Below are positions 26,347 to 49,626 of a stretch of 64,000 nt of DNA, in pieces; the first letter of the stretch is position 1, and every line of letters starts with the position of its first letter. The position numbers and the translations under genes were made by a program. The stretch covers positions 62,001-126,000 of the forward strand of contig NZ_SLZF01000012.1 of NCBI RefSeq assembly GCF_004341515.1. The letters are read 5' to 3'. The notes under the pieces were generated by a model. That model was not told the origin of the DNA. It made no database searches and was given only the letters and a program-made list of their open reading frames with translations. Origin of the DNA: Allobosea sp. BK604. GTDB taxonomy: Bacteria > Pseudomonadota > Alphaproteobacteria > Rhizobiales > Beijerinckiaceae.

Positions 26347-26360
26347 TTGATCGGGATCAA
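26347..26360 (+). promoter_or_regulatory. FNR/FixK box, distal, ccoN
   Basis: TTGAT-CGGG-ATCAA, a perfect match to the consensus, 51 bases upstream of a second perfect box. Confidence 0.75.
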
Positions 26361-26397: not shown

Positions 26398-26411
26398 TTG
26401 ATCTGAATCAA
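26398..26411 (+). promoter_or_regulatory. FNR/FixK box, proximal, ccoN
   Basis: TTGAT-CTGA-ATCAA, a perfect consensus match, centred 80 bases before the ccoN start codon. Confidence 0.85.
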
Positions 26412-26484
26412 AGTCATTCCAATCGGGTCTCGGTACCGCTCGCATCGAAGCGCCATGGGGCGCGGCGAGCAGAAGAGGTGTCGC

Positions 26485-28152
26485 ATGGCGGCGACTGGCT
26501 ATCCGATCCGGCGAGCGACGCCAGGAGAAATGGGCGGCATGTTGCTGGCGGCGGCCGCGGTGCTGCCCCTGCTGATGATCGCGGGGATGACCTCCGATTC
26601 CGGCTACGCCTTCCATGCCAGCCTGTCGGCGGCCGCGGCGACGGCGAGCATCTTCCTGATCGCCAACCGCTGCTTCCGCCCCGGGCAGGTTCCGGCCCCG
26701 CTCGAGATCGATGGCCGGCCGAACTACAACATGGAGCCCGTCAAATTCGCGACCGTCGCCGCGATGGTCTGGGGCATCGCCGGCTTCGCGATCGGCGTGA
26801 TCATCGCGTCGCAGCTCGCATTTCCCGATCTGAATTTCGATCTGCCCTGGGTCAATTTCGGCCGCCTGCGGCCGCTGCATACCTCGGCGGTGATCTTCGC
26901 CTTCGGCGGCAACGTGCTGATCGGCACCTCCTTCTACGTGGTGCAGCGTACCTGCCGGGCCCGGCTCGCCGGCGACCTTTCGCCCTGGTTCGTCATCCTC
27001 GGCTACAATTTCTTCATCGTCATCGCCGGCACGGGCTACCTGCTCGGCATCACCGATGGGAAGGAATACGCCGAGCCGGAATGGTATGCCGACCTCTGGC
27101 TGACCCTCGTCTGGGTCGTCTACCTGCTCGTCTTCCTCGGCACGCTGGCACGCCGCAAGGAGCCGCACATCTATGTGGCGAACTGGTTCTATCTCGGCTT
27201 CATCCTGACCATCGCCGTCCTGCATGTCGGCAACAACCTCGCCGTGCCGGTCTCGGTCCTGTCGCCGAAATCCTACGGGCTCTGGTCGGGCGTGCAGGAT
27301 GCGATGTTCCAGTGGTGGTACGGCCATAACGCCGTCGGCTTCTTCCTTACCGCCGGCTTCCTCGCGATCATGTACTATTTCGTGCCGAAGCGGGCGGAGC
27401 GGCCGATCTACAGCTACCGGCTCTCGATCATCCACTTCTGGGCGCTGATCTTCCTCTATATCTGGGCCGGCCCACACCACCTACACTACACCGCCCTGCC
27501 CGACTGGGCGCAGACCCTGGGCATGACCTTCTCGATCATGCTCTGGATGCCCTCCTGGGGCGGCATGATCAACGGGATGATGACCCTCTCGGGCGCCTGG
27601 GACAAGCTGCGCACCGATCCGGTGCTGCGGATGATGGTCGTCTCACTCGCCTTCTACGGCATGTCGACCTTCGAGGGCCCGCTGATGTCGATCAAGGCGG
27701 TCAACTCGCTCTCGCACTATACCGACTGGACCATCGGCCATGTCCATTCCGGCGCGCTCGGCTGGGTAGCCTATATCTCCTTCGGCGCGATCTACTGCCT
27801 GGTGCCCTGGCTCTGGAACCGCAAGGGCCTGTATTCGCTCAAGCTGGTCAACTGGCACTTCTGGGTCTCGACGCTCGGCATCGTGCTCTACATCTCGGCG
27901 ATGTGGGTGTCCGGCATCATGCAGGGCCTGATGTGGCGGGCCTATACCTCGCTCGGCTTCCTCGAATACTCGTTCATCGAGACGGTTGCGGCGATGAAGC
28001 CCTACTACGTCATCCGCGCGATGGGCGGCGTGCTCTTCCTGACCGGCGCGCTGATCATGGCCTTCAATCTCTGGATGACGGTGCGGCGCGGGGCGGAGGA
28101 CGTCCCGCAGCGCGATCTCACGCCCCAGCCGCAGCTCGTCCCCGCGGAGTAA
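26485..28152 (+). CDS. ccoN: Cytochrome cbb3 oxidase subunit I
   Basis: Catalytic subunit of the high-affinity terminal oxidase in the inner membrane; reduces oxygen at a haem b3-CuB centre. Haem and copper ligands are visible in [31 protein letters not shown] and [14 protein letters not shown], spread over about 12 hydrophobic helices. The ATG at 26485 has GAGG nearby; an in-frame ATG at 26455 is weaker. At 555 residues it is complete. It heads ccoNOQP-ccoGHIS, preceded by two perfect FNR/FixK boxes, as expected for induction in low oxygen. Confidence 0.98.
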
Positions 28153-28162
28153 GGAACGCCCC

Positions 28163-28933
28163 ATGTCGAGCCTCGACACCAACGCGCCCGAGCCGCGCAA
28201 GTCGCTCTGGTCAAAGCACAAGATCTTCGAGACGAACTCGATCATCCTGGTCATCGGCGTCCTGCTGGTCGTCTCAATCGGCGGCCTGGTCGAGATCGCG
28301 CCCCTCTTCTACCTGCGCAACACGATCGAGACGGTCGAGGGCATGCGGCCCTACACGCCGCTCGAGCTCGCCGGCCGGGCGATCTATGTCCGCGAGGGCT
28401 GCTATAACTGCCACAGCCAGATGATCCGGCCGCTGCGCGACGAGATCGAGCGCTACGGGCACTACTCGCTCGCCGCCGAGAGCATGTACGACAAGCCCTT
28501 CCAATGGGGCTCCAAGCGCACCGGCCCGGACCTCGCCCGCGTCGGCGGCAAATATTCCGACGAATGGCAGCTCGCCCATCTTAACCGGCCACGCGATCTC
28601 GTGCCGCAGTCGATCATGCCGGGCTATCCGTTCCTGGCTGCGACCCGGCTGAATTACGGCGATATCGCCGACCACCTGCGCGCCAACCGCGCCGGCGGCG
28701 TGCCCTATAGCGACGAGATGATCGCCCAGGCGGAGACCGACCTGAAGGCCCAGGCGACGCCGGACCATCCCCGCGCCGCCGAGCTCGAGGCCCGCCATCC
28801 CAAGGTCCAGATCCGCGACTTCGACGGCGACGCTCAGCGCATCAGCGAGGCCGACGCCCTGATCGCCTACCTCCAGACCCTCGGCACGCTCGTCGACTTC
28901 AAGATCTACGACGACAAGGCCAACATCCGGTGA
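28163..28933 (+). CDS. ccoO: Cytochrome cbb3 oxidase subunit II (monohaem cytochrome c)
   Basis: Membrane-anchored cytochrome c that passes electrons to CcoN. One N-terminal helix ([19 protein letters not shown]) is followed by the haem site [14 protein letters not shown] and the later axial methionine region SIMPGYPFL. The 256-residue protein starts 10 bases after ccoN and is part of the same operon. Confidence 0.97.
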
Positions 28934-28938: not shown

Positions 28939-29097
28939 ATGACGACATCGACCTATGCCTGGCTCGCCCATTTCGCGCAGTCGACCGGCGTCCTCTACTT
29001 CATGGGCATCTTCCTCGCCGTCTGCATCTACGCCTTCTGGCCCTCCAACCGCGCGCGCTTCGAGGAAGCCGCCCGCACGCCATTGCGGGAGGACTGA
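28939..29097 (+). CDS. ccoQ: Cytochrome cbb3 oxidase subunit IV, small
   Basis: A 52-residue single-helix membrane protein that stabilises the oxidase complex. The sequence begins MTTSTYAWLAHFAQSTG, then a hydrophobic stretch VLYFMGIFLAVCIYAFWP, then a charged tail. It starts five bases after the ccoO stop and ends two bases before ccoP. Confidence 0.92.
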   Translation: MTTSTYAWLAHFAQSTGVLYFMGIFLAVCIYAFWPSNRARFEEAARTPLRED

Positions 29098-29099
29098 GC

Positions 29100-29984
29100 A
29101 TGGACGGGCATCACGACAGGGACAATTTCGACTCCGTCACCGGCCACTCGACCACCGGCCATGAATGGGACGGCATCCGCGAGCTCAACACGCCGCTGCC
29201 GCGCTGGTGGCTCGGCGTCTTCTACGCCACGATCATCTGGTCCGTCGGCTACTGGGTCGTCTATCCCGCCTGGCCGCTGCTGACGGACGCGACGCGCGGC
29301 GTCATCGGCTACGCGACCCGGCTCTCGATCGAGCAGGACCTCGCGACGCTGCGCGACTTCCGGGCAGCGCAGTCGAAGGGGCTCGCCGAGGCCTCGCTCG
29401 TGCAGATCAAGGCCGATCCCGACCTGTTCCGGGTCGCGATGGCGCAGGGCAAGGCTGCCTTCGGCGACAATTGCGCCGCCTGCCACGGCGTCGGCGGCGC
29501 GGGCGCCAAGGGCTTCCCCAACCTGAACGACGACGACTGGCTCTGGGGCGGCTCGCTCGACACGATCCGCACGACGATCCAGCACGGCATCCGCTTCGCC
29601 GGAGACGCCGACACGCGGGTGAGCCAGATGCCGGCCTTCGGCCGCGACAAGATGTTGACGCCCGGGCAGATCAACGATGTCGCCAACCATGTCCGCGCGA
29701 TCGCCGGCCTGCCGACCCAGCCCAGGGCCGATCTCGCCGCCGGCGGCAAGCTCTTCGCCGAGAACTGCGCCGCCTGCCACGGCGAGGCGGGCAAGGGCAA
29801 CCGCGAGATGGGCGCGCCGAACCTCACCGACGCGATCACGCTCTACGGCATGGACGTGGCCTCGCTCACCGAGACGATCACCAACAGCCGCAACGGCGTG
29901 ATGCCCGCCTGGGGCGGGCGGCTCGATCCGACCACGGTCAAGGCGCTGACCATCTATGTCCATTCGCTCGGTGGGGGTGAGTGA
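29100..29984 (+). CDS. ccoP: Cytochrome cbb3 oxidase subunit III (dihaem cytochrome c)
   Basis: Entry point for electrons from periplasmic cytochromes. The N-terminal helix is WLGVFYATIIWSVGYWVVYP, preceded by the family segment HEWDGIRELNTPLPRWW. Two haem c sites, NCAACHGVGG and NCAACHGEAG, mark two cytochrome domains. The 294 residues are normal. Its start lies two bases after the ccoQ stop, and its stop is just before ccoG. Confidence 0.97.
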   Translation: MDGHHDRDNFDSVTGHSTTGHEWDGIRELNTPLPRWWLGVFYATIIWSVGYWVVYPAWPLLTDATRGVIGYATRLSIEQDLATLRDFRAAQSKGLAEASLVQIKADPDLFRVAMAQGKAAFGDNCAACHGVGGAGAKGFPNLNDDDWLWGGSLDTIRTTIQHGIRFAGDADTRVSQMPAFGRDKMLTPGQINDVANHVRAIAGLPTQPRADLAAGGKLFAENCAACHGEAGKGNREMGAPNLTDAITLYGMDVASLTETITNSRNGVMPAWGGRLDPTTVKALTIYVHSLGGGE

Positions 29985-29985
29985 G

Positions 29986-31422
29986 ATGGCCGTCATCGAC
30001 GCGGATGATCTGCCCCTCTTCGCACCGTCGAAGAAGGTCTATCCCCAGAGCGTGGCCGGCCCCTATCGCCGGGCCAAGTGGATCATCCTCGTCCTCTGCC
30101 TCGGCATCTATTACCTGCTGCCCTTCCTGCGCTGGGACCGCGGCCCCAACCTGCCCGATCAGGCGGTGCTGGCCGATCTCGCCAATAACCGCTTCTATTT
30201 CTTCTTCATCGAGATCTGGCCGCAGGAGATCTATTATTTCACTGGCCTGCTGATCATCGCCGCCCTCGTCCTCTTCCTGATGAATGCCGTCGCCGGCCGG
30301 GTCTGGTGCGGCTATCTCTGCCCGCAGACGGTCTGGACCGACCTCTTCCTCGCGGTCGAGCGCGCCTTCGAAGGCGACCGGCGCGAGCGGATCAGGCGCG
30401 ACGAGAGCCCCTGGTCGCTCGACAAGGCCTGGCGCAAGACCGGCAAGCACGCGGTCTGGCTCGTCATCGCCTGGTGGACCGGCGGCGCCTGGGTGCTCTA
30501 TTTCGCCGACGCGCCGACCCTGGTGCGGGAGCTCGCGACCTTCACCGCCCCGGTCTCGGCCTATGTCTGGATCGCGATCCTGACCTTCACCACCTATTCG
30601 CTCGCGGGCATCATGCGCGAGCAGGTCTGCACCTATATGTGCCCCTGGCCGCGTATCCAGGCCGCACTGACCGACGACGACGCGCTCAACGTCACCTATC
30701 GCTATGACCGCGGCGAACCGCGCGTCTCCGTGAAGCAGGCCCAGCGCCTGCGCGCCGAGGGCGTGCCGGCCGGCGACTGCATCGACTGCAACCAATGCGT
30801 CGCGGTCTGCCCGACCGGCGTCGACATCCGCGACGGCGCACAGGTCGGCTGCATCCAGTGCGGGCTGTGCATCGATGCCTGCAACACGGTGATGGCGAAG
30901 ATCGCCTATCCGACCGGGCTGATCGCCTATGACACCGACGATAACGTCAAGCGCCGCATCGCCGGGCACAGGCCGGTCTACCGGCTGCTGCGGCTGCGCA
31001 CGGCGATCTATGCCGCGCTCATCCTCGTCGTCGGCGGCGCGATGATCTACCAGCTCGCCACCAGGCAGACGGCCGGGATCTCCGTCCTGCATGAGCGCAC
31101 GCCGCTCTTCGTCAAGCTGAGCGACGGCTCGATCCGCAACAGCTACACCATCCGCCTGCTCAACAAGCGACCGGAAGAGCGGCCCTTCGCCCTGACGGTG
31201 TCCGGCCTGCCCGGCGTCCGGATCGAGACCATCGGCCCTCAGGCGACGGCGGATCTGCGCCCGGTCGTGACGGTCGAGCCCGACTCGTCGCGCGAAATCC
31301 GCGCGCTCGTCACCGTGCCGGCCGACGTCCATCTCGAAAAGTCCCAGCCGCTCACCTTCACCGCCTCGGACCTGTTCGCCGGCGAGATCGTGCGCGCCGA
31401 GGATCATTTCATCGCACCTTAA
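29986..31422 (+). CDS. ccoG: Cytochrome c oxidase accessory protein CcoG (FixG)
   Basis: Membrane iron-sulfur protein that supplies copper for the cbb3 oxidase, thought to reduce Cu(II). The two 4Fe-4S motifs are CIDCNQCVAVCP and CIQCGLCIDAC near residues 265-300. Several N-terminal helices include WIILVLCLGIYYLLPFLRW, and GYLCPQTVWTDLF is a family hallmark. The ATG at 29986 directly follows the ccoP stop; a start at 29956 would overlap it. The C-terminal immunoglobulin-like periplasmic domain (NSYTIRLLNKRPEE) is present. Confidence 0.96.
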   Translation: MAVIDADDLPLFAPSKKVYPQSVAGPYRRAKWIILVLCLGIYYLLPFLRWDRGPNLPDQAVLADLANNRFYFFFIEIWPQEIYYFTGLLIIAALVLFLMNAVAGRVWCGYLCPQTVWTDLFLAVERAFEGDRRERIRRDESPWSLDKAWRKTGKHAVWLVIAWWTGGAWVLYFADAPTLVRELATFTAPVSAYVWIAILTFTTYSLAGIMREQVCTYMCPWPRIQAALTDDDALNVTYRYDRGEPRVSVKQAQRLRAEGVPAGDCIDCNQCVAVCPTGVDIRDGAQVGCIQCGLCIDACNTVMAKIAYPTGLIAYDTDDNVKRRIAGHRPVYRLLRLRTAIYAALILVVGGAMIYQLATRQTAGISVLHERTPLFVKLSDGSIRNSYTIRLLNKRPEERPFALTVSGLPGVRIETIGPQATADLRPVVTVEPDSSREIRALVTVPADVHLEKSQPLTFTASDLFAGEIVRAEDHFIAP

Positions 31423-31432: not shown

Positions 31433-31981
31433 ATGTCCTGCTGCGGAGGCTTCATCATGCCGATCGAATTACCGGCTTCACCGCCGCCCCGACCGCGGGC
31501 GCCTTTCAGGCTCGGCGGCCGCTTCGTCCTCGTCACGATGATCGGCTTCTTCGCCGTGGTCGCCGGCGCCAATGCCGTGATGATGACCGTCGCGATCCGG
31601 ACCATGCCCGGCGTCGACGTCAAGAGCGCCTACGAGACGAGCCAGCGCTTCAACCAGGAGATCGAGCGGATGCGGGCGCAGGCCGCACGCGGCTGGCAGG
31701 TCGACGCCGATCTCAGGGATGACGGCACCGAGAGCGTGGTCGAGATCGCCTTCCTCGACAAGCGGGGCGTCCCCGTCCGCGGCCTCGATGTCGAGGCCAG
31801 GCTCGAACACCCGGCGACGCGCAGCCAGGACCGCGACGAGCACCTGACCGAAGCGGCGCCCGGGCGCTACCTCGCCCGCATGCGAGCGCTCCATGCCGGC
31901 GGTTGGACGCTCGCCATCACCGCCCGCCGCGACGGCGCAGCTGTCTTCGACACCCGCAGCCGTATCGTGCTGAGGGACTAG
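31433..31981 (+). CDS. ccoH: Cbb3 oxidase maturation protein FixH
   Basis: Membrane-anchored assembly factor for the cbb3 oxidase. A helix LVTMIGFFAVVAGANAVMMTVAIRT (here split by family conservation) is followed by a periplasmic domain opening with SAYETSQRFNQEIERM and containing LEHPATRSQDRDEHLTEAAPG. Length 182 residues is typical of FixH. It lies between ccoG and ccoI with short gaps. Confidence 0.93.
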   Translation: MSCCGGFIMPIELPASPPPRPRAPFRLGGRFVLVTMIGFFAVVAGANAVMMTVAIRTMPGVDVKSAYETSQRFNQEIERMRAQAARGWQVDADLRDDGTESVVEIAFLDKRGVPVRGLDVEARLEHPATRSQDRDEHLTEAAPGRYLARMRALHAGGWTLAITARRDGAAVFDTRSRIVLRD

Positions 31982-31985
31982 CACC

Positions 31986-34190
31986 ATGGCCGCCACCCAC
32001 GACCTCTCGATCTTCGTCCGCCATGGCGAGGGCGGCGTCGCCGGCATGGAACTCGCCGTCGACGGCATCCACTGCGCCGGCTGCATGCACAAGATCGAGC
32101 GTGGCCTCTCCCGCCAGTCCGGCGTGCTGAGCGCCCGCGTCAACCTGGCGCTGAAGCGCGTCACCGTCGAGTGGACCGAGGGAGCGCTGCGGCCGGAGGC
32201 GGTCATTGCCGGCCTCCAGAGCCTGGGCTTCAAGGCCTATCCCTTCCTGCCCGCCGAGGCGCGGGACGCCGACGCTCAGGAGGACAAGCGGCTGCTGCGC
32301 TGCCTCGGCGTCGCCGGCTTCGCCTCGATGAACATCATGCTGCTCTCGGTCTCGGTCTGGTCCGGCAATGGCGGCGAGATCAGCCCGGTCACGCGCGACT
32401 TCTTCCACTGGCTCTCGGCGCTGATCGCCCTGCCGACCGCGGCCTATGCCGGGCGGCCCTTCTTCGAGAGCGCGATCCGCGCCCTCAGGGCCGGCGGCGT
32501 CAACATGGACGTGCCGATCACGCTCGGCATCGTGCTGACGCTCGGCATGTCCGTGGTGGAGACCTGGAACCATGCCGAGAACGCCTATTTCGACGGCGTC
32601 GCGATGCTGCTCTTCTTCCTGCTGATCGGCCGCTATCTCGATCAGCTGATGCGCCGGCGCACCCGCGACCTCGCCGGCAATCTCGCCGCGCTCAAGGCAG
32701 AGACGGCGACCAGGCTCGGCGTTGACGGCGCGACGGTGGTGGTGCCGATCGCAGCGATCGCGCCCGGCGAGCTCGTGCTGGTCAGGCCGGGCGAGCGGGT
32801 CAGCGTCGACGGCATCGTCGAGGGCGGTTCCTCGGAGATCGACCAGAGCCTGGTGACGGGTGAGACTGCACCGGTCGCGATCTCTGCCAAGGGCCGCGTC
32901 CATGCCGGAACGATGAACCTTTCCGGCATGCTCACGGTCCGTGTCGAGGCGGCAGGCTCCGGCACGCTGCTCGACGAGATCGACCGGCTGATGGCGCAGG
33001 CGGTCGAGAGCCGCTCGCGCTATGTCAAGCTTTCCGACCGCGCCGCCCGGCTCTATGCGCCGCTGGTCCATGCCACCGCGCTCGCCACCTTCCTCGGCTG
33101 GGTCGCCTTCGGCCTCGCCTGGCAGCAGGCGCTGATCATCGCCATCACCGTGCTGATCATCACCTGCCCCTGCGCGCTCGGCCTTGCGATCCCGGCCGTG
33201 CAGGTCGTCGCAGCTTCGGCCTTGTTCCGGCGCAAGGTCATGTTGAAGCAGGGCGACGCGCTCGAGCGCCTCGCCGAGATCGACACGGTCGTCTTCGACA
33301 AGACCGGGACGTTGACCCTGCCCGAGCCCAGCCTCGCCAATCGCGAGGCGATCGATCCGGCAATCCTCGAGGCGGCAGGCAGGCTCGCCGCCGCCAGCCG
33401 CCATCCGCTGGCGCGCCCGCTCGCCTTCGGCGCCGGCGAGCCGCGCCCGCCCGAGGGCGTGCAGGAGCATCACGGCCTCGGCCTCAGCGCCATCGTCGAC
33501 GGCACTGAGATGCGGCTCGGAAGCGTCGCCTTCTGTGGCGCGGAGCGCGAGGCGCGGGCCGTCGCCGCCGCCTATCCGACTGCCTCGCTGATCGCCTGGC
33601 GGCACGGCGAGCGCTGCGCCGTCTTCGCCGTCGACCAGGAGCTCCGGCCGGATGCGCGGGCGAGCATGCGGGAGCTGCGCGCGCTCGGGCTCGACATCGT
33701 CATCCTCTCGGGTGACAGGGAGAGCGCCGTCGCGCCTCTGGCGCGCGAACTCGGCATCGAAGTCTACAAGGCCGGGCAGCGTCCCGACGAGAAGCTCGCC
33801 GAGCTCGATCGGCTCGCCACGTCCGGCCGCAAGGTGCTGATGGTCGGCGACGGGCTCAACGACGCGCCCGCGCTGGCCAAGGCGTATGTCTCGATCTCGC
33901 CGATCAGCGCGACGCATCTGGCGCAGGCTTCGGCCGACATCGTCTTCCTCGGCGACGAGCTGGCCCCCGTCGCCGCCAGCATCCGCATCGCGCGAAAGGC
34001 ACGCGGCCTGATGGTGGAGAACCTCTGGTTCGCGGTGCTTTACAATGCCGTTGCCGTACCGATTGCGATCGCCGGCTTCGCTACGCCGCTGGTAGCGGCC
34101 GTCGCCATGTCCGGCTCGTCGATCGTCGTCACGCTGAATGCGCTGCGCGCCTCCCGGCCCGCAGCCACTCCCTCGGAGCAGGCGCCATGA
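31986..34190 (+). CDS. ccoI: Copper-transporting P1B-type ATPase for cbb3 assembly
   Basis: Exports copper for insertion into the oxidase. An N-terminal heavy-metal domain has GIHCAGCMHKIE. The membrane metal site is TCPCALGLAIP. The phosphorylation motif is FDKTGTLTLP, preceded by SLVTGETAPV and followed by MVGDGLNDAPALA. The 734-residue size matches FixI/CcoI. It starts four bases after ccoH and overlaps ccoS by four bases. Position in the fixGHIS set identifies it as CcoI rather than a detoxifying CopA. Confidence 0.96.
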   Translation: MAATHDLSIFVRHGEGGVAGMELAVDGIHCAGCMHKIERGLSRQSGVLSARVNLALKRVTVEWTEGALRPEAVIAGLQSLGFKAYPFLPAEARDADAQEDKRLLRCLGVAGFASMNIMLLSVSVWSGNGGEISPVTRDFFHWLSALIALPTAAYAGRPFFESAIRALRAGGVNMDVPITLGIVLTLGMSVVETWNHAENAYFDGVAMLLFFLLIGRYLDQLMRRRTRDLAGNLAALKAETATRLGVDGATVVVPIAAIAPGELVLVRPGERVSVDGIVEGGSSEIDQSLVTGETAPVAISAKGRVHAGTMNLSGMLTVRVEAAGSGTLLDEIDRLMAQAVESRSRYVKLSDRAARLYAPLVHATALATFLGWVAFGLAWQQALIIAITVLIITCPCALGLAIPAVQVVAASALFRRKVMLKQGDALERLAEIDTVVFDKTGTLTLPEPSLANREAIDPAILEAAGRLAAASRHPLARPLAFGAGEPRPPEGVQEHHGLGLSAIVDGTEMRLGSVAFCGAEREARAVAAAYPTASLIAWRHGERCAVFAVDQELRPDARASMRELRALGLDIVILSGDRESAVAPLARELGIEVYKAGQRPDEKLAELDRLATSGRKVLMVGDGLNDAPALAKAYVSISPISATHLAQASADIVFLGDELAPVAASIRIARKARGLMVENLWFAVLYNAVAVPIAIAGFATPLVAAVAMSGSSIVVTLNALRASRPAATPSEQAP

Positions 34191-34384
34191 ACATCCTGGT
34201 CCTGCTGATGCCGCTCGCACTCGGTCTCGGCCTCACCGGCCTCGCCGCCTTCTTCTGGTGCATGCGCACCGGCCAGTTCAGCGACATGGACGGGCCGGGC
34301 TGGCGCATCCTCGAAGATGACGATGTCGGCAGGGAGGGCGTGCTCGTCGAGGCGGCCGGAGCACAGCACCAGGATCGGTTATAG
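34187..34384 (+). CDS. ccoS: Cbb3 oxidase maturation protein CcoS
   Basis: Short membrane protein needed for cofactor insertion into CcoN. One helix, LLMPLALGLGLTGLAAFFWC, is followed by the family segment TGQFSDMDGPGWRIL. The 65 residues are usual. Its ATG overlaps the ccoI stop (ATGA), so the two are translationally coupled. It closes the operon. Confidence 0.94.
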   Translation: MNILVLLMPLALGLGLTGLAAFFWCMRTGQFSDMDGPGWRILEDDDVGREGVLVEAAGAQHQDRL

Positions 34385-38710: not shown

Positions 38711-38721
38711 ACGCAGCGGCT

Positions 38722-39780: not shown

Positions 39781-39987
39781 TCATGTCTGATTGCGCGCCT
39801 GCGTGGCCTTTTCCCAGATGCGGACGGCATCCTTGAGCGCCATGATCTCGCGATGGCTGCTCCCGTCCTGAACGGAGAGCGCCTTGATGCGCCGTGTCGC
39901 CAGGGCGTAGTCCTCGATTGTCTCGATCGTGAAGATTGGCGGATCGGACCTGCAGGAGTCCGGGCCATGCTTGACTGTCGTTTTCAT
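39781..39987 (-). CDS. Small uncharacterised protein, 68 residues
   Basis: Not recognised with confidence. The sequence starts MKTTVKHGPDSC and continues with IETIEDYALATRRIKAL, then a probable second helix IMALKDAVRIWEKATQ. The two-helix pattern recalls the N-terminus of HigA-type antitoxins, but no DNA-binding helix-turn-helix follows. A strong GGAGG stands five bases before the ATG, and an FNR/FixK-type box lies about 80 bases upstream on the same gap, which supports a real gene. It lies between two UspA genes on the opposite strand. Confidence 0.6.
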   Translation of the reverse strand: MKTTVKHGPDSCRSDPPIFTIETIEDYALATRRIKALSVQDGSSHREIMALKDAVRIWEKATQARNQT

Positions 39988-40060
39988 CGACAACCTCCGT
40001 GGTTTAAGTGTCGGATACGCGACGCCTGACTGATCGTAGGACGGATAGGGCGGTCCAGAT

Positions 40061-40074
40061 TTGCGCCACATCAA
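40061..40074 (-). promoter_or_regulatory. FNR/FixK-type box upstream of 68-residue gene
   Basis: TTGCG-CCAC-ATCAA with the TTG-N8-CAA core, centred 80 bases before the minus-strand start at 39987. Confidence 0.5.
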
Positions 40075-40192
40075 ACTCCCCATCGGCGCTTCGGGCGGGC
40101 GGCCATGCGGCGGAGGGCGGCAGCGTTTCGGGCGGGCCATGCAGGCAAAGCTCGCGTCGCGGGGCCGGCCGGCTGATCAATTCTAGCCGCTT

Positions 40193-40206
40193 TTGACCCA
40201 GGTCAA
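40193..40206 (+). promoter_or_regulatory. FNR/FixK-type box upstream of third uspA
   Basis: TTGAC-CCAG-GTCAA, a symmetric FixK-like site, centred 62 bases before the UspA start at 40262. Confidence 0.65.
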
Positions 40207-40261
40207 AGCAATCTGCTCAGGCACAGGTGGCATTGCGACATTCGACCCCATGGAGCTTGTC

Positions 40262-41083: not shown

Positions 41084-41166
41084 TCGCATGACGGCGTGAT
41101 CAGGCGGAAGACGGCGAGCGGAAGGAGCAGGATAGCCGATCTGCATCCAGGCCGAATTCGGCGTGC

Positions 41167-41180
41167 TTGACCGAAATCAA
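41167..41180 (+). promoter_or_regulatory. FNR/FixK-type box upstream of APH/AAA fusion gene
   Basis: TTGAC-CGAA-ATCAA, nine of ten consensus positions, centred 69 bases before the start at 41243. Confidence 0.65.
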
Positions 41181-41242
41181 AGCCTGCGGGTGAACCACCG
41201 GGCCATGATCGGAATTATTCAGGGGAGGCGGAGTGCACGCAG

Positions 41243-42841
41243 ATGCAGGCCTGCAATCAGAACGAGACGATCTGCTTTCTCGGCTCGCCGCGAGCCTTCG
41301 GCGATTGCGCGGGGCGGGCGCGGACGGTCTCGACCCATATCTCGGTGGTGCTGCTGCTCGGCTCGCGCGCGCTCAAGCTGAAACGGCCGGTCGCCCTGCC
41401 CTATCTCGACCTGTCGACGCCCGAGCGCCGGCTGGCCATGTGCGAGCGCGAGCTGATGCTCAACCGTCGCACCGCGCCGGAGCTCTACCGCGCCGTCCAC
41501 CGCATCACGCGCGAGGGCGACGGCAGCCTGACACTGAACGGCCAGGGCAAGCTCGTCGACGCCGTGCTGGAGATGAAGCGCTTCGACGACAGTCTCCTGT
41601 TCGACAGACTTGCGCAGGAGCGACAGCTGACGTCGTCCGACATGGCGGCGCTGGCAACGAGCATCGCCGAATTCCACCGCTCGGCCGCGATTGCGGAGGG
41701 CGGCGACGGGGCGGCGCGCATGGGGCGCGTGCTCTCCGTCAACGAACGCGCCTTCGCCGCCACGTCTCTCCTCGCACCAGCTGAGGTCGCCCAGGTCAAC
41801 GCCGCCTGCCGCACCGCCCTCACCCGTCATGCCGGCCTGCTCGACCAGCGGGCGCGCGACGGCAAGGTCCGGCGCTGCCATGGCGACCTGCACCTGCGCA
41901 ATATCTGCATGGTCGATGGCAAGCCGCTGCTTTTCGACTGCCTTGAGTTCGACGAGGATCTCGCCACGACCGACGTCCTCTACGACCTCGCCTTCGTCCT
42001 GATGGACCTGTGGTACCGCCGGCGCGAGACGCTCGCGAACGCCCTGTTCAACCGCTATCTCGACGCCACCGGCGACGAGGCGGGATTGCGCCTGCTGCCC
42101 TTCTTCATGGCCGTGCGCGCCGCGGTGCGCGCCCATGTCACCGCGGCCAGTGCCACCGGCAACGAGCCGTCCTCCGCCTGGAAGCTGGCGGAAGCACAGG
42201 CCTATCTCGAGCTTTGCCTCACCTTGCTGGAGCGCAGGCCGCCCATTCTCGTCGCCATCGGTGGCTATTCGGGCTCGGGCAAGTCGACGGTCGCGGCCGC
42301 GGTCGCGCCGAAGCTCGGCCCTGCCCCGGGGGCCCGGATCGCCGCGAGCGACCGCCTCAGGAAGCGCCTGTTCGGCGTCTCGCCCGAGACGCGGCTGCCC
42401 GAGGCGGCCTATTCCGAAGAGGCTTCAGCCCGCACCTACCAGGCCATGGCGGAGGCGGCCGCGAACGCGCTGTCGCAAGACCATGCGGCGATCGCGGACG
42501 CGGTCTTCGACCGGCGGATCGAGCGCGACCGGATCTGCGAGGTTGCGAGGCATGCCGGAGTGCCGTTCCGGGGCCTCTGGCTCGACGCGCCGGAGGAGAT
42601 GCTGATACGGCGCGTGGCCGAGCGGCTGGGTGATCCGTCCGACGCGACCTCCGAGGTGATCAGGGCCCAGCTCGCCCGGAAGGGCGCGGCGACCGATTGG
42701 ACGCGGCTTGCCGCACAGGCGGACGGCAGGACGGTCGCAGATGCTGCCATCGCGGCTATCGGAGCGGGAACCACGGTGCAGGCCGCATGGCCCGCTCCGG
42801 CGCCGGCTTCGGGCACGCTTTCGTCATCGGCGATCCTTTGA
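41243..42841 (+). CDS. Aminoglycoside-phosphotransferase-like/AAA ATP-binding fusion protein
   Basis: Two-domain protein of unknown physiological substrate. The N-terminal APH-like kinase region (about residues 1-310) contains RRCHGDLHLRNICMVDGKPL with its catalytic aspartate, then FDCLEFDEDLATTDVLYDL. The C-terminal part is a P-loop kinase domain with AIGGYSGSGKSTVAAAVA near residue 336. This fusion is widespread in proteobacteria and often sits near cbb3 or stress genes. ATG at 41243 is preceded by GGGGAGGCGGAG. It ends 45 bases before the convergent sensor kinase gene, and an FNR/FixK-type box lies upstream. No evidence for antibiotic resistance. Confidence 0.88.
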   Translation: MQACNQNETICFLGSPRAFGDCAGRARTVSTHISVVLLLGSRALKLKRPVALPYLDLSTPERRLAMCERELMLNRRTAPELYRAVHRITREGDGSLTLNGQGKLVDAVLEMKRFDDSLLFDRLAQERQLTSSDMAALATSIAEFHRSAAIAEGGDGAARMGRVLSVNERAFAATSLLAPAEVAQVNAACRTALTRHAGLLDQRARDGKVRRCHGDLHLRNICMVDGKPLLFDCLEFDEDLATTDVLYDLAFVLMDLWYRRRETLANALFNRYLDATGDEAGLRLLPFFMAVRAAVRAHVTAASATGNEPSSAWKLAEAQAYLELCLTLLERRPPILVAIGGYSGSGKSTVAAAVAPKLGPAPGARIAASDRLRKRLFGVSPETRLPEAAYSEEASARTYQAMAEAAANALSQDHAAIADAVFDRRIERDRICEVARHAGVPFRGLWLDAPEEMLIRRVAERLGDPSDATSEVIRAQLARKGAATDWTRLAAQADGRTVADAAIAAIGAGTTVQAAWPAPAPASGTLSSSAIL

Positions 42842-42886: not shown

Positions 42887-44803
42887 TCAGTCCAGCAGCA
42901 GACGCAGCCGCGTCGCCAGCTCCCGCGCCGTATAGGGCTTCTTGAGCCAGCTGCCTTCGTCGAGCTCGCGGCCGGCAAGGCTGGGCTCGGCATAGCCCGA
43001 GGTGAAAAGGACCTTGAGATCGGGGCGCAGCGCCCGGGCCTCCTTGGCGAGCTCGTCGCCGAGCATGCCGCCGGGCATCACGATATCCGTGAAGAGCAGC
43101 TCGATCTCCGGATGCTCGGCCAGCGCCGTGAGCGCCTGCGCGCCGTTGCCGGCCTCGATCACGCGATAGCCCTCGTCCTCCAGCCGTGCGACGGCGACGC
43201 GGCGGACGCGCGCATCATCCTCCACGACCAGAATGCATTCATGGCCGCGCGGACCTGCCGGCGCATCCGCCTCCCCTCCGGGCTCGCCCACCCCTCCGCG
43301 CAGGCCGGCGGCAGCCGGCAGGAAGAGCCGCACCGTCGTGCCCCGGCCGAGCTCGCTGTAGAGCTGCACATGCCCGCCCGATTGCCTGGCGAAGCCATAG
43401 ACCATGCTCAGGCCGAGCCCGGTGCCTGAGCCGACCCCCTTAGTCGTGAAGAACGGCTCGAAGGCGCGTTGCTGGACCTCCGCGCTCATGCCCTCGCCGG
43501 TATCGGAGATGCTGACGAGGACATAGTCGCCGGTGCGCACCTGCGGGTACATCTGGGCATAGTCCGCGTCGAGATGAGCGCGCGCGATCTCGACCGTCAG
43601 CCGCCCGCCGCGCGGCATCGCGTCGCGCGCGTTGAGCGCGAGGTTGAGCAGCGCGTTCTGGAGCTGGGCGGTATCGACCAGGGCCGACAGCGCTGCTCCG
43701 GTGATCACCGTGCGCAGCTCGATCGCCTCACCGAGCGTCCGCCGCAGCAGGTCGGCGAAATTCGAGACGAGCTGGCCGATATCGGCGAGCTTGGCGTTGA
43801 GCGCCTGGCGCCGACCGAAGGCGAGCAGTTGCCCGGTCAGCTTGGCGCCGTCATCGGCGGCGCCCTGCGCCTCGCGCAGCAGGGCGAGCAGCCTTTCGTT
43901 ATCGAGCCGCCGCTCGATCATCTCGAGATTGCCGCTGATGACCGTCAGCAGGTTGTTGAAGTCATGGGCGATGCCGCCGGTCAGCTGGCCGATCGCCTCC
44001 ATTTTCTGCGACTGGCGCAACTCCTCTTCCATCTTGTGGCGGCTGGTCAGGTCGCGGATGAAGCCGGTGAAAATCCGCTTGCCGCTGGTCGCAGCCTCAC
44101 CGACCGCAAGCTCCATCGGAAAGGTGGTGCCGTCCTTGCGCTGCCCTGTGACGACGCGGCCGAAACCGATGATGCGGCGTTCGCCGGTGGTCAGGTAGCG
44201 CGAGATATAGTCGTCATGCCGATCACGGTCGGGATTCGGCATCAGCATCTTGACGTTGCGCCCGCAGACCTCCTCCGCCGCGAAGCCGAAGAGGCGCTCC
44301 GCCGCCTTGCTGAAGGACAGCGTGATGCCGGCCTCGTCGATCACCACCATCGCTTCCGGCACGGTCTCGAGGATCGAAAGCAAGTGGGATTCGCGCGCGG
44401 CGAGGTCGTCCTGCGCGTATTTCAGGTCGCTGATATCGGAATTCGTCACCACGATGACGAAGTCGGAAGGCCGATCGCAGGCCACGGCGACCCAGCGGCT
44501 GGCTACGAAGATCGGCCGTCCGTCGCGGTGCCGCTGCGTCAGCTCGCCCTTCCAGGTGCCGTGCCGGCGGAGCTCGGCGAGAATCTCGTCGAGCGGGCGC
44601 GGAAAGACCGTCTTCAGGAGGTCGTGAACGCTCCTCCCGATCGCCTCCGCGGCGGTCCAGCCGTAGAGCTCCTCGCAGCCGCTCGTCCAGCGGCTGATCA
44701 CGCCGTCGAAGCCGTGAACGATGAAGTTGCCGTCGTCGAGGATCGCAGCGATCTCGTCCAGGCCGCTCTGCGTGATGACTTTCCGTTCGCTGGTCTTCGT
44801 CAC
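42887..44803 (-). CDS. FixL-like haem-PAS hybrid histidine kinase with receiver
   Basis: Predicted cytoplasmic oxygen sensor. Two PAS domains (about residues 14-125 and 140-255) precede a HisKA/HATPase kinase (GGIAHDFNNLLTVISG, phospho-acceptor His280) and a receiver domain with LLFTDIVMPGG (Asp573). The second PAS reads RHDDYISRYLTTGERRIIG then GFGRVVTGQRKDGTTFPMEL, matching FixL: His196 corresponds to the haem ligand and Arg216, exactly 20 residues on, to the distal arginine. No membrane helix is seen. The GTG at 44803 with AGGA upstream avoids overlap with the Crp/Fnr gene; an earlier frame start at 44899 would overlap it. The domain order matches hybrid FixL (hFixL) of Rhizobium etli. Confidence 0.9.
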   Translation of the reverse strand: MTKTSERKVITQSGLDEIAAILDDGNFIVHGFDGVISRWTSGCEELYGWTAAEAIGRSVHDLLKTVFPRPLDEILAELRRHGTWKGELTQRHRDGRPIFVASRWVAVACDRPSDFVIVVTNSDISDLKYAQDDLAARESHLLSILETVPEAMVVIDEAGITLSFSKAAERLFGFAAEEVCGRNVKMLMPNPDRDRHDDYISRYLTTGERRIIGFGRVVTGQRKDGTTFPMELAVGEAATSGKRIFTGFIRDLTSRHKMEEELRQSQKMEAIGQLTGGIAHDFNNLLTVISGNLEMIERRLDNERLLALLREAQGAADDGAKLTGQLLAFGRRQALNAKLADIGQLVSNFADLLRRTLGEAIELRTVITGAALSALVDTAQLQNALLNLALNARDAMPRGGRLTVEIARAHLDADYAQMYPQVRTGDYVLVSISDTGEGMSAEVQQRAFEPFFTTKGVGSGTGLGLSMVYGFARQSGGHVQLYSELGRGTTVRLFLPAAAGLRGGVGEPGGEADAPAGPRGHECILVVEDDARVRRVAVARLEDEGYRVIEAGNGAQALTALAEHPEIELLFTDIVMPGGMLGDELAKEARALRPDLKVLFTSGYAEPSLAGRELDEGSWLKKPYTARELATRLRLLLD

Positions 44804-44822
44804 CCGGCCGGTCCTGCGCTCG

Positions 44823-45575
44823 TCAATGAGGCCGAGATGCCTGCTGCGCCATCCCGGCATCAGCCAGAGCGTTATCGCCCTCCTCGACCTCACCAGCAAG
44901 GCAGGCCAGGTTCGATAGCTGGCGAATCTCGAAGGCGTAGCGGCTGCTCGGCGTGATCACGCCGCGATGGGTCAGGCTCGTCACCGTTCGTGACACGGTC
45001 TCGATGGTCAGGCCGAGATAGTCGGCCATGTCGAGGCGGTTCATCGGCAACTCGACGACGATCGGCCCTGGGCGGCGCGGCGCGCGGCGTGCCAGTTCGA
45101 GCAGGAGGCTGCACACGCGCTCCTCGGCGCTCTTGCGGGCAAGCAGCACCATCCGGTTCTGCGCAGAGGCCATTTCCTCGCAGATCCTGGCGACGAAGAG
45201 TGGCCGCAGCTCGGCCGATTCATCGATCGCCTCGCGGAACCGGTTGAGGCCGAGCCGCCGCAGCTTGACCTCGTTCACCGCCTCGGCGGTGTAGAGGTAG
45301 CGCTCGTCGAGCGAGATGCCGAGAATCTCGCCGGGATAGATGAAGCCGGTGATGATGCGGCGGCCATCGGCCAGGATCTTGAAGATGCGAAGCACACCCT
45401 CGACGACCTTGAAGACATGCGTCGCGGCGTCGCCTTCCCAGAAGATCGCGCTGCCGCTCTCATGGGTCTCCAGCGGCTGGCGGCTGAATAGGCCGAGCAG
45501 GCCGGGTTTCACCGCGTTGAGCGCGAGACCCGGAAACTGGCCGGGCGCCCGGGACACCGCATTCGCAACGATCAT
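44823..45575 (-). CDS. Crp/Fnr-family regulator, FixK-like
   Basis: DNA-binding regulator expected to recognise TTGAT-N4-ATCAA sites. The cyclic-nucleotide-type sensor domain includes SGSAIFWEGDAATHVFKVVE; the C-terminal helix-turn-helix is LDMADYLGLTIETVSRTVTSL, with the Glu and Ser-Arg that read the FNR/FixK half-site. No N-terminal cluster-binding cysteines are seen, so it is FixK-like rather than a direct oxygen sensor like FNR. ATG at 45575 follows GGAGAC. It stops 19 bases before the FixL-like kinase and is divergent from an OmpR-type regulator. The eight nearby boxes are plausible targets. Confidence 0.9.
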   Translation of the reverse strand: MIVANAVSRAPGQFPGLALNAVKPGLLGLFSRQPLETHESGSAIFWEGDAATHVFKVVEGVLRIFKILADGRRIITGFIYPGEILGISLDERYLYTAEAVNEVKLRRLGLNRFREAIDESAELRPLFVARICEEMASAQNRMVLLARKSAEERVCSLLLELARRAPRRPGPIVVELPMNRLDMADYLGLTIETVSRTVTSLTHRGVITPSSRYAFEIRQLSNLACLAGEVEEGDNALADAGMAQQASRPH

Positions 45576-45646
45576 GACCACCGTCTCCGCATCGGAATTG
45601 ATGACACGAGTTGAGTGCCCTTGCGTGACTGCGGAACGATCGGCGT

Positions 45647-45683
45647 GTTACCGATAGTGCTGATTTGTAACGAACTGTGACAA
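45647..45683. promoter_or_regulatory. Repeated GTTAC/GTAAC elements in fixK-like/OmpR-type divergent gap
   Basis: GTTAC (45647-45651) and GTAAC (45667-45671) are inverted copies, and TTGTAAC (45665-45671) pairs with GTGACAA (45677-45683) at six of seven positions. Candidate binding site for the OmpR-type regulator, placed as an FxkR site upstream of fixK would be. Site identity is inferred. Confidence 0.4.
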
Positions 45684-45712
45684 GCTCCCCGCCCCGCTCC
45701 TTCCAAGTGCAG

Positions 45713-46438
45713 ATGGCCGATCCGCAGACACGCAGCGAACACATCCTCGTCGTCGACGACGATGCGCGCATCCGGCAAATGCTGATCAGCTATTTCGAGG
45801 ATGAGGGTTATCGCGTCAGCGCCGTCCCGGACGGGCGCGGCATGCGTGAGGTATTGCAGAATTCCCCGATCGACATCGTCCTGCTCGATCTCATCCTTCC
45901 CGGCGGCGAAGATGGCCTGGTACTGGCGCGCGAGATCCGCTCGCGTTCGGACCTGCCGATCATCATGCTGACCGGGCGCGACGACGTCGTCGACCGCATC
46001 GTCGGGCTCGAGGTCGGGGCCGACGACTATATCGCCAAGCCGTTCCATCTCCGCGAGGTCCTGGCCCGATTGCGGACGGTGCTGCGCCGCCGTCAGCGCT
46101 CACCCGAAGCGGCGAAGACCGAGACGGGCATCATCCGCTTCGACGGCTGGGAACTGGATCCGGAGCGGCGGCGGCTGACGATGCCGGACGGCCAGGAGGT
46201 CGCGCTCACCACCGGAGAGTTCGATATCCTCACCGTGTTCGCGCGCCATCCGGGGCGCGTCTTCTCGCGGGAGACGCTGATGGACCTGACGCGCGGGCGC
46301 CGCCAGGAAGCCTTCGACCGGACGATCGACGCCCAGATCGCGCGACTGCGCAAGAAGATCGAGCCGGAACCCGGCGCCCCGACGCTGATCAAATCCGTCC
46401 GCGGCGTGGGCTATGTCTTCACCGGCAAGCGCTCCTAG
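45713..46438 (+). CDS. OmpR/PhoB-family response regulator (FxkR-like by context)
   Basis: Receiver plus winged-helix regulator. The receiver has ILVVDDDARIRQMLISYFED and the phosphorylation site IVLLDLILPGGEDG, with MLTGRDD and ADDYIAKPF completing the pocket. The C-terminal winged helix includes LTTGEFDILTVFARHPGRVF and IDAQIARLRKKIEPEPGAP, ending in VRGVGYVF. ATG at 45713 is chosen; a GTG at 45677 is possible. No classical kinase partner is adjacent; the only nearby kinase is the FixL-like hybrid. This matches the hFixL-FxkR pairing of Rhizobium etli, in which FxkR, also OmpR-type, activates fixK. Assignment as FxkR is by context. Confidence 0.88.
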   Translation: MADPQTRSEHILVVDDDARIRQMLISYFEDEGYRVSAVPDGRGMREVLQNSPIDIVLLDLILPGGEDGLVLAREIRSRSDLPIIMLTGRDDVVDRIVGLEVGADDYIAKPFHLREVLARLRTVLRRRQRSPEAAKTETGIIRFDGWELDPERRRLTMPDGQEVALTTGEFDILTVFARHPGRVFSRETLMDLTRGRRQEAFDRTIDAQIARLRKKIEPEPGAPTLIKSVRGVGYVFTGKRS

Positions 46439-46471: not shown

Positions 46472-47206
46472 TCAATTTTCGGTGTCGACCCTGGCCGTCG
46501 CACCGGCACCTGTACCGGCGAAGCGATGCGGGTTCAGCCGTTGCGCGGCAATGACCACCTCCAGCCTGTTCCGCGCGCGGAGCTTGCCCATGAGGTTGGT
46601 CATGTAGCCTTTGACCGTCTTCTCGCTCAGCGCCAGCGTGCGCGCGATTTCGCTGTTGCGCTTGCCACAGAGCAGCAGATGCACGATCTGCTCCTCCCGC
46701 AAGCTGAGCTTCGTGCTTTCCGCTACGCGTTTTTGCAGCGCCTTGCTCTGCAGCGCGCCGATGACCTTGGTCGCGAAGGATGGCGTGACATACATCTCGC
46801 CGCGCCGCGTCATGTCGATCGCCTCGAACAGTTCCCCCGCCTGGCTGTTCTTCAGCACATAGGCGTCAGCGCCGGAATCCAGGGCGCGCATCGCATGCTC
46901 TGCGCTGGCAGAGGCGGCAAAGGCGATGATCTTCGTGTCCGGGTATTCCCGGCGGAGGCTCGCCATCGCCTGGAACGCATCCCCCGGCACGTTGAGGTCG
47001 ATGATCATCACGTCGATCTCATGACGTGACGCAATCGCGATGATGTCGCCCGCGCGCGAGCCCGTTGCCGAGATGGCAAAGCCGGTCCTGCCCCGGAGAA
47101 CGGACGCAATCCCCTCCATCATGAGGGGATGGTCATCGACAATGCCAACCGAGATCACCAGAGTCTCCGCCCCACCCTTACTTTTGTCGTAGGTCGCAAG
47201 AGCCAT
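46472..47206 (-). CDS. NarL/LuxR-family response regulator, orphan
   Basis: Receiver (VGIVDDHPLMMEGIASVL, phospho-acceptor in VMIIDLNVPGDAF) joined to a LuxR-type helix-turn-helix (LSLREEQIVHLLLCGKRNSE, then IARTLALSEKTVKGYMTNL). The 244-residue length is standard. No kinase gene is directly attached; its partner could be the kinase at 48199-49626 or one elsewhere. It is convergent with the OmpR-type regulator and followed upstream by an unusually AT-rich gap. Confidence 0.9.
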   Translation of the reverse strand: MALATYDKSKGGAETLVISVGIVDDHPLMMEGIASVLRGRTGFAISATGSRAGDIIAIASRHEIDVMIIDLNVPGDAFQAMASLRREYPDTKIIAFAASASAEHAMRALDSGADAYVLKNSQAGELFEAIDMTRRGEMYVTPSFATKVIGALQSKALQKRVAESTKLSLREEQIVHLLLCGKRNSEIARTLALSEKTVKGYMTNLMGKLRARNRLEVVIAAQRLNPHRFAGTGAGATARVDTEN

Positions 47207-47549: not shown

Positions 47550-48209
47550 TCACTCGTCGGACGCCGGGACATAACGCTGGGCTGCAATGGCAGCCTCGGT
47601 GCGGTTCTTGAATTCCCCTTTCGCGAGAATGTTCGAGACGTGAAACTTCACCGTCTTGACCTGCACGCCTGTCGCCTCCGCGATCTCGCGGTTGCTCAGG
47701 CCATGGCCGAGAAGCCGAAGGACGCGCTCCTCGGCGCGGGACAGGAGTGCAAGCCTGGCCTGGATCGGGTCGACCGGTTGCGGCTTGCGCATTGCCGCCA
47801 GGAGTTGGACCGCCATGCCGGGTGGGACATAGCGCTCGCCATCGGCAATCGAGCGCACGATACTGACCAGGTCCGGCGCGGACACGCCTTTGAGCACGTA
47901 TCCGACCGAACCGGCATCAAGCGCTTTCAGGACGGTCTCCTGGTCTTCGGACACCGTCAGCATGATGACCTTCACCCGGGGCCAGCGCTTGCAGATTTTC
48001 TGCGCGGCTCCCAGGCCGCCGCCGGGCATCGAGACATCCGTCAGCGCAATGTCGGGCGTGAGACGTTCGACCAGGTTGATGGCATCTTCGGCGGTCGCCC
48101 CCTCGCCGACAACGTCGAAATCGTCGACGTCACGAAAGGCCTGGACCACGCCGCTCCGAAAGAGCGAATGGTCGTCGACGACGACAATCGAGCGCCTGTC
48201 AGTGTTCAA
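47550..48209 (-). CDS. NarL/LuxR-family response regulator paired with adjacent kinase
   Basis: Receiver domain (IVVVDDHSLFRSGVVQAF, with IALTDVSMPGGGLG as phosphorylation site) followed by the LuxR-type helix-turn-helix LLGHGLSNREIAEATGVQVK and VKFHVSNILAKG. The most likely start is TTG at 48209, four bases after GGAGGG; a TTG at 48224 is an alternative. Either way the start overlaps the end of the sensor kinase gene, so the two are translationally coupled and form a two-component pair. Confidence 0.88.
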   Translation of the reverse strand: MNTDRRSIVVVDDHSLFRSGVVQAFRDVDDFDVVGEGATAEDAINLVERLTPDIALTDVSMPGGGLGAAQKICKRWPRVKVIMLTVSEDQETVLKALDAGSVGYVLKGVSAPDLVSIVRSIADGERYVPPGMAVQLLAAMRKPQPVDPIQARLALLSRAEERVLRLLGHGLSNREIAEATGVQVKTVKFHVSNILAKGEFKNRTEAAIAAQRYVPASDE

Positions 48210-49626
48210 GCAGCCCTCCAACAAGCTCCAGGTTCATCGAAATCCGGGTCTCTCCCGATTGCCGGATCTCGGCGGCGAATGTTCCGCCGAGGCTTTCGAC
48301 GCGATTGCGCAGCCCTTGCAGGCCGAGTCGCTCTCCGTCAGCGGCGTCCCGCTCGACGATAACGGCTGCCCCGTCATTTGCGACCACGACTGAAAGCGTC
48401 GTGCCATAGAGCGCGCAGCTGACGGATTGCCGGGCGCCGGCCGCGTGGCGGAAAGCGTTGTTCAGGCATTCCTGAACGAAGCGGAACACGCAAGCCCTCA
48501 CGGCATCCGAAATCTCGATGCCGACGGCTTCGGTCGCGAGTTGCACCTCGGTATGCGTCCGTCTCTCGTGAGCGCGCGCAGCGCGCGCAATGACGTCCTG
48601 CAAGGGCAGGCCTGCAAGATCGGGCAGGAGCAGCCCCTTCGCGATCGTCCGGATTTCGTGCAGGGCTTCAGACAGGACCGTGCCCAGATGCTGGACGAGC
48701 CGGCCGCGCGCAGCAGGGTCGGAGGCGGCCGCGATCTCGTCGAGCTTGAGCTTGGAGAAGCCGACGAGCTGGGCCGGGCCATCATGCAGTTCGGCCCCGA
48801 CCGTGCGGATGAACTGCTCGTTGAGCTCGGCGACGCGGGCGGATGCGCGCTGCAGGCGATCTCTCAGGTTCTGGTTCAACAATGCCAGCCTCTCGGCTTC
48901 GGCGATACGCGCCTCCAGGGCAGCGTGCTGCGCCTCGATGGTCCGACTTCCGCGACGGACGATACCGTAAAGGCCGAGCATGATCGCCAGCGTGCTTCCG
49001 GCCACGACCAGCCAGCTGCCCCAGCGCAGATTGGCGAGGTCCCCTTGCAGAGGCTGCGTGAATTCGTGGATCTCCGCGACGCCCAGGACATGTCCCTCCA
49101 CGCCCGAGCGTATCGGGCTGTAGATTTCGAGGAACGGCGTCTTGATGTCACGGACGCGGTGCTCGCCGGCGCGCAGGTCCGTGTAGTCGGCGACGACTTC
49201 GCCGCTCAGCGCGCGCGACAGCCCGGCAGAATGCGGAAAGCGCTGGCCGATGATCTGGGTAGAATTCGAATAGGCGACGGTTCCGTCGGGCTTCCAGATC
49301 TCGAAATAGGGGAACCGATCCTTGAACTGCTCCTTCGACAGGAGCATGTCGAGCCTGGCGGATGAGTCCGGCGACAGGCGCCCCGTGCTGGCGAGCTCAT
49401 CAGCAAAGGGCGCAACCAGGCTCTGCATGAACAGCGCCGTGGCTGCCGCCTTGTGATTGATCGTGCTGCGCGCGACGAGGGCGCTGATCGCGTAGCCGGC
49501 GAACAGCATCGCGATCAACAGCAGCAGACCGCCCGCGACCAGGAACTGGGCCGACAAGCTGCCGAAAGGCCGCTTTGCCAGGGCCTGCTGGCCGTGGCCA
49601 AGCCAGCCACGAAGACCCGACTTCAC
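48199..49626 (-). CDS. Sensor histidine kinase, NarX/DegS type, membrane-bound
   Basis: Two transmembrane helices (FLVAGGLLLLIAMLFAGYAI and WLVVAGSTLAIMLGLYGIV) enclose a periplasmic sensor of about 150 residues. The HisKA_3 dimerisation site is GAELHDGPAQLVGFSKL, with the phospho-acceptor histidine. The ATPase domain has ECLNNAFRHAAGARQ and GLQGLRNRVESLGG. GTG at 49626 is preceded by GGAGG and is preferred over a TTG at 49680. It overlaps the response regulator downstream and is divergent from the giant peroxidase gene, a possible target. Signal unknown. Confidence 0.88.
   Translation of the reverse strand: MKSGLRGWLGHGQQALAKRPFGSLSAQFLVAGGLLLLIAMLFAGYAISALVARSTINHKAAATALFMQSLVAPFADELASTGRLSPDSSARLDMLLSKEQFKDRFPYFEIWKPDGTVAYSNSTQIIGQRFPHSAGLSRALSGEVVADYTDLRAGEHRVRDIKTPFLEIYSPIRSGVEGHVLGVAEIHEFTQPLQGDLANLRWGSWLVVAGSTLAIMLGLYGIVRRGSRTIEAQHAALEARIAEAERLALLNQNLRDRLQRASARVAELNEQFIRTVGAELHDGPAQLVGFSKLKLDEIAAASDPAARGRLVQHLGTVLSEALHEIRTIAKGLLLPDLAGLPLQDVIARAARAHERRTHTEVQLATEAVGIEISDAVRACVFRFVQECLNNAFRHAAGARQSVSCALYGTTLSVVVANDGAAVIVERDAADGERLGLQGLRNRVESLGGTFAAEIRQSGETRISMNLELVGGLLEH

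Follow-up and report, generated by a model that had tools for sequence, protein, structure and literature searches.

Positions 42887 to 46438 of a 64,000-nucleotide stretch of DNA from Allobosea sp. BK604, which was analysed as a whole and is here called the window, carry three adjacent genes, hfixL, fixK and fxkR, that very probably constitute the hFixL-FxkR-FixK oxygen relay of a Bosea. hfixL (42887..44899, minus strand) encodes a hybrid FixL-type kinase with a PAS, a haem PAS, HisKA, HATPase_c and a receiver; fixK (44823..45581, minus strand) encodes a Crp/Fnr regulator of the FixK kind and forms an apparent operon with hfixL; fxkR (45677..46438, plus strand), divergent from fixK, encodes an OmpR-type response regulator that is the orthologue of Rhizobium etli FxkR. 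These coordinates and strands, together with the Pfam domains (cNMP_binding and HTH_Crp_2 in the Crp/Fnr protein, Response_reg and Trans_reg_C in the OmpR-type one), agree with the original prediction, made from the sequence alone, of a FixK-like gene next to the kinase gene and an OmpR-type gene divergent from it; its interpretation as a whole was largely right. Domain content, haem residues, orthology, gene order, a conserved operator and anaeroboxes, all of them directly observed, carry the identification. Systems of this kind were known before; the host is a less expected one, and the newness lies mainly in where the relay occurs.

The hybrid kinase hFixL

The longest open reading frame of hfixL opens at TTG 44899, while the start is likely GTG 44803 (638 residues), directly past the fixK stop. 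In the longest-frame numbering, Pfam finds PAS in two stretches, HisKA at 304-366, HATPase_c at 409-530 and Response_reg at 556-665; no membrane segment stands out in the protein, its highest hydropathy over 19 residues being 1.15. The second PAS, the haem domain, matches solved FixL domains from end to end (1dp6, E 1.3e-46; 8js5, E 2.4e-48), and the residues that we take to be the proximal haem histidine and the conserved arginine of FixL align with His228 and Arg248, which become 196 and 216 if GTG 44803 is the start; their spacing is exactly 20. The alignment with the FixL structures and the Pfam domains bear out the earlier reading of a kinase that keeps these two residues at this distance and carries a C-terminal receiver. 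Among the top seven loci of 49 kinase matches in the host genome, the haem motif is found only in the window kinase, which is 64.6% identical over 91% to the hFixL of R. etli p42f, whose gene adjoins a fixK.

Comparison of 41 loci, six of them without an hFixL match (L009, L016 = L188, L199, L021, and L019 near a contig end), revealed that His228, Arg248, His312 and the receiver Asp605 are kept in 35 out of 35 aligned proteins; since Asp605 is invariably kept, the receiver probably matters. L009 is R. etli, whose hfixL is found elsewhere on p42f. In four loci (L013, L022, L023 and L031, from Sinorhizobium meliloti SM11a, Microvirga flocculans and two Devosia) the hFixL match runs from the haem PAS onwards only, and from its absence there the first PAS seems to be dispensable. 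The kinase of Devosia and of Microvirga flocculans sits on the opposite side of fxkR.

The well-known FixLJ-FixK system likewise has a haem PAS sensor leading to FixK, but in the window the kinase bears a receiver and the regulator is of the OmpR type rather than FixJ. Classical FixLJ was ruled out because the host has no FixJ over the cut-off (best match 199.6 bits, cut-off 255) and the kinase falls far below the cut-off of the NCBIfam FixL model (284.7 bits, cut-off 850); the proposal that the cascade stands in place of FixLJ fits the FixJ score of this host. FixJ over the cut-off is present in 13 of the 41 genomes compared and in 11 of the 25 that belong to the genus.

The regulator FxkR and its operator

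The start of fxkR is likely ATG 45713, the position at which alignments with other FxkR proteins begin. The window regulator is 67.8% identical to RHE_RS29195 of R. etli CFN42 p42f, 67.2% to the regulator of S. meliloti pSmeSM11a and 65.8% to FxkR9 of R. johnstonii 3841 pRL9. The coordinates given in PMC7888657 identify the pRL9 gene as fxkR9; place and clade lead us to read RHE_RS29195 as the fxkR published for R. etli, and its pSmeSM11a counterpart as that of S. meliloti. In a tree of 118 rows the window protein falls within a 37-row clade (support 95/91) that also contains the FxkR of S. meliloti, R. etli and R. leguminosarum; rows L016 and L153 of this clade are copies of a single genome. 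Regulator phylogeny was one of the tests that the original prediction had named, and the protein lies inside the FxkR clade, not far from it. Clade members with names outside the Rhizobiaceae are a Bosea metagenome-assembled genome and Microvirga flocculans. The 40 rows preset as FxkR candidates (at least 56% identity) do not form one clade (4 changes), two Devosia and Microvirga terricola being placed outside.

The published FxkR operator, or K-box, is GTTACA-N4-GTTACA (PMC4999443, PMC7888657). A predicted K-box with one mismatch, GTCACA-N4-GTTACA, lies between the divergent genes at 45666..45681 on the minus strand and reads towards fixK. It precedes both genes, the fixK start codon used here by 84 bases and the fxkR ATG by 31, and is not mentioned in the original prediction. 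The comparison covered 36 loci, three of which (L153, L156, L164) have no divergent fixK beside fxkR; all the remaining 33 clusters, many of them close kin and not independent events, hold an intergenic K-box with at most two mismatches, and 24 with at most one. The box stands 75-90 bases before the inferred fixK start in 25 out of 33, the best match is reversed in six, and dinucleotide shuffles equalled the match in 0 to 3 of 200. For R. leguminosarum, PMC7888657 gives the K-box position as -62 relative to the transcript start of fixK9b and +6 relative to the start of fxkR9, which fits the geometry of the window.

The window site is the sole exact GTYACA-N4-GTTACA in the host genome, an exactness that is partly circular, as the Y was set after the site had been seen. 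A genome-wide K-box regulon was considered and rejected: with one mismatch allowed, 5 places were found against 9 for the reversed control, so only the site of the locus was put to use. The K-box lends sequence-level support to the FxkR-fixK DNA-binding step; the binding itself is presumed from the rhizobial systems.

FixK and the cbb3 oxidase operon

Judged by eye from its translation, the N-terminal part of the window FixK contains no cysteine and so lacks the FNR cysteine cluster; an oxygen-sensing Crp protein of the FNR type was ruled out on this ground. The name FixK-like is given from gene context and from 44-51% identity to the fixK products of eight named rhizobial loci, and not from the NCBIfam FixK equivalog NF050806, whose cut-off is missed. 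Among the Crp proteins of the host genome the window FixK scores 395 bits, with a profile that contains it, and the next protein 73; no FnrN model was searched.

Two exact anaeroboxes (TTGAT-N4-ATCAA), predicted FixK/FNR sites, are found at 26347..26360 and 26398..26411 on the plus strand, both upstream of ccoN. Simulated sequences of the same dinucleotide make-up hold on average 0.017 exact anaeroboxes per window, and not one of the 60 simulations contained a pair; a looser search that tolerated two mismatches gave 21 matches where 10.4 were expected. The cbb3 oxidase operon that follows lies entirely on the plus strand: NCBIfam models identify ccoN (subunit I, 26455..28152), ccoO (subunit II, 28163..28933) and ccoG (29956..31422), and position only assigns the probable ccoQ and ccoP (28955..29980), with no NCBIfam match at 1e-10. 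Probable ccoH, ccoI and ccoS occupy 31433..34384, H and S by position, and the gene at the ccoI position (31986-34190) was matched as a Cu P-type ATPase. The three regulatory genes had been described as sitting together beside the cco operon; they do sit together, but the operon is 8.5 kb away with other genes between. Proximity to cco is common to some rhizobia and not to other Bosea loci, as far as these were fetched.

A putative oxygen relay and its rivals

Oxygen sensing, phosphotransfer, operator binding and the direction of regulation are here modelled on the rhizobial hFixL-FxkR-FixK systems, for which function has been reported (PMC7888657, PMC4999443). Low oxygen would leave the haem of the second PAS unliganded and the soluble hybrid kinase active; hFixL would then phosphorylate FxkR, either directly or by way of the hFixL receiver and a carrier not linked to the locus. 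FxkR, on the K-box between the divergent genes, would switch on fixK-hfixL and probably also adjust its own gene; FixK, itself devoid of an iron-sulphur cluster, would use the two anaeroboxes to activate the cbb3 oxidase operon. Both DNA-binding steps have support in the sequence, at the K-box and at the anaeroboxes, while sensing and phosphotransfer draw on the rhizobial work.

The original prediction held that no other kinase was nearby, which is not the case: a NarX/UhpB-like membrane kinase (48199-49680, minus strand; strongest hydrophobic stretch 2.48) lies 1.8 kb downstream of fxkR. FxkR might be served by another kinase such as this one, and hFixL might use its receiver to signal to a partner outside the locus, for instance a ChpT-like carrier; the kinase core of hFixL does resemble CckA, but its scores with CckA models stay far short of the cut-off (335 bits vs 1000). 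Such an arrangement is very unlikely, since the NarX-like kinase adjoins a LuxR-type response regulator of its own (47550-48224, minus strand), and neither the kinase, nor this regulator, nor a further LuxR-type one next to fxkR (46472-47206, minus strand) was found in any of 34 related loci; conversely, hFixL is beside FxkR in 11 out of 11 positive genomes, host included. Moreover, the FxkR receiver is nearer to the hFixL receiver (37% identity) than those of the two LuxR-type neighbours are (28% each). Less probable still is a FixL paralogue that senses nitric oxide, carbon monoxide or redox state and controls genes unrelated to oxygen: haem PAS domains can bind other gases, but every aligned hFixL protein retains the two FixL residues, proximal His and Arg, and a cbb3 operon preceded by anaeroboxes lies in the same window.

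Several observations weigh against an hFixL-FxkR-FixK relay that senses oxygen and acts on the oxidase. Position 234, which corresponds to the third haem-pocket arginine and is Arg in the window, varies among the 35 aligned proteins: 26 have Arg, five His and four Asn. Given the receiver of hFixL, phosphate may reach FxkR directly or by relay; no gene for an HPt or other phosphotransfer protein was identified in the hfixL-fixK-fxkR locus, and a receiver elsewhere in the genome (C1:1110151, 63.9 bits) is slightly closer to that of hFixL than FxkR is (58.7). Some FxkR orthologues (L009, L016 = L188, L199) are adjoined by neither hFixL nor fixK. FixK is the least conserved partner, with 39-47% identity to four rhizobial references, and misses the curated cut-offs for both FixK (139.5 bits) and FnrL (120.4), each set at 300, the FixK model NF050806 being of the Caulobacter type. 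Finally, ccoN was found near only three of 34 related clusters (L010, L011, L031), none of them from Bosea as far as fetched, so that proximity to cco is not a general feature.

Relation to known systems

The compact three-gene layout is already known, from S. meliloti pSmeSM11a and, as reported in PMC7888657, from the R. leguminosarum 3841 chromosome. Plasmid pSmeSM11a matches the window in all three genes, their order and their strands; it has an exact K-box in the same place, and acetate-CoA ligase/GNAT and universal stress genes adjoin the three as in the window; differently from the window, its hFixL has no first PAS and the locus is plasmid-borne, in a strain from alfalfa nodules. R. etli CFN42 p42f has the orthologous kinase and regulator, an exact K-box before fixK (FixKf) and cco genes adjoining fixK-hfixL, but fxkR is about 20 kb from fixK-hfixL and not divergent. 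In R. leguminosarum (johnstonii) 3841 pRL9, hFixL9 is 63.6% and FxkR9 65.8% identical to the window proteins, and, unlike in the window, the genes are divided between two clusters. The chromosome of the same strain has fxkRc, fixKc and hfixLc together in one cluster, for which PMC7888657 reports that no K-box was found.

Distribution and host background

The host genome measures 7.63 Mb. A search for 16S found none in it (9 of 14 controls gave a match), and RpoB served in its stead: identity is 97.1% with Bosea thiooxidans, 96.5% and 95.3% with two other Bosea and 86-87% with two Microvirga, and the host was therefore taken as Bosea. For G001, G008 and the Devosia row the RpoB comparison has DNA identities but no useful protein. 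FxkR orthologues were found in 11 of the 41 genomes, host included, at 12 places (E at most 1.4e-115; next best 2.9e-85), and hFixL orthologues in the same 11 genomes, also at 12 places (at least 1075 bits; next 603), each time beside FxkR (12/12); the search profiles, A1 and A2, contain the window's own proteins. Ten of the 11 FxkR-positive genomes belong to the 25 of the genus, five of these ten with FixJ over the cut-off and five, including the host, without. Among 397 genomes of the order, FxkR was found in 15, six of them in family group f24 and nine in five other groups, that of the host included; the threshold (E at most 1e-95) was chosen after the gap had been seen, and only seven candidates per genome were scored. 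Group f24 is taken as Rhizobiaceae because its member G055 has both the FxkR and the contig of R. ecuadorense.

The novelty is thus one of range, nine of the 15 FxkR-positive genomes being placed outside the Rhizobiaceae group. A study of 50 genomes, with R. etli and R. leguminosarum among those it names, placed the origin of the system in the ancestor of the Rhizobiaceae (PMC4999443); the spread observed here bears on this published origin and would fit with it only given later transfer. Among the papers listed in literature searches, none was seen from its title or the abstract shown to describe hFixL-FxkR-FixK in Bosea.

In all 25 genus genomes, host included, nifH over the curated cut-off is absent; it was found in two of the 41 genomes overall. 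Pairs of nifH-like genes far under the cut-off occur in four of the 25 (G004, G009, G011, G018) and are probably bchL and bchX of photosynthesis. A search for NodA gave no match in the host, but none in any control genome either. A search for RepC, which bears on whether contig C12 may be a plasmid, also found nothing; a single control matched, weakly and under the cut-off. Bosea strains that do not nodulate have been recovered from nodules (PMC10223793); the earlier placement outside the usual nodule symbiont setting is thus to be understood as referring to nitrogen fixation, and nodules need not be excluded. In this genome the role of the relay seems to lie in microaerobic respiration and not in nitrogen fixation.

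A cascade known from legume symbionts is in this way placed in bacteria where no nifH was found, and the version in the window, seemingly single-copy and free of the paralogues of R. leguminosarum 3841, suits the question of how phosphate passes from a hybrid kinase to FxkR. It is possible, and proposed here only tentatively, that hFixL-FxkR-FixK is an old, general switch for low-oxygen respiration in the Hyphomicrobiales and not an invention of the Rhizobiaceae, and that nodule rhizobia tied it to nitrogen fixation later; this Bosea would then keep a minimal form, with one sensor, one regulator, one FixK and a clear operator, no FixJ over the cut-off, no second protein of the FixK/FNR branch and no nifH found.

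Neighbouring genes

Between the cco operon and hfixL (34514-42841) the window holds an APH/AAA kinase-like gene, which recurs in nine of 34 related loci, along with an acetate-CoA ligase/GNAT-like gene and several genes for universal stress proteins. About 60 bases before the APH/AAA gene lies an anaerobox-like site with one mismatch (41167-41180), which may be part of the FixK regulon. Further along, at 49896-57152 on the plus strand, a protein of 2418 residues is encoded; judged by eye, its N-terminal part resembles a haem peroxidase, and many glycine/aspartate repeats of RTX-like appearance are present.

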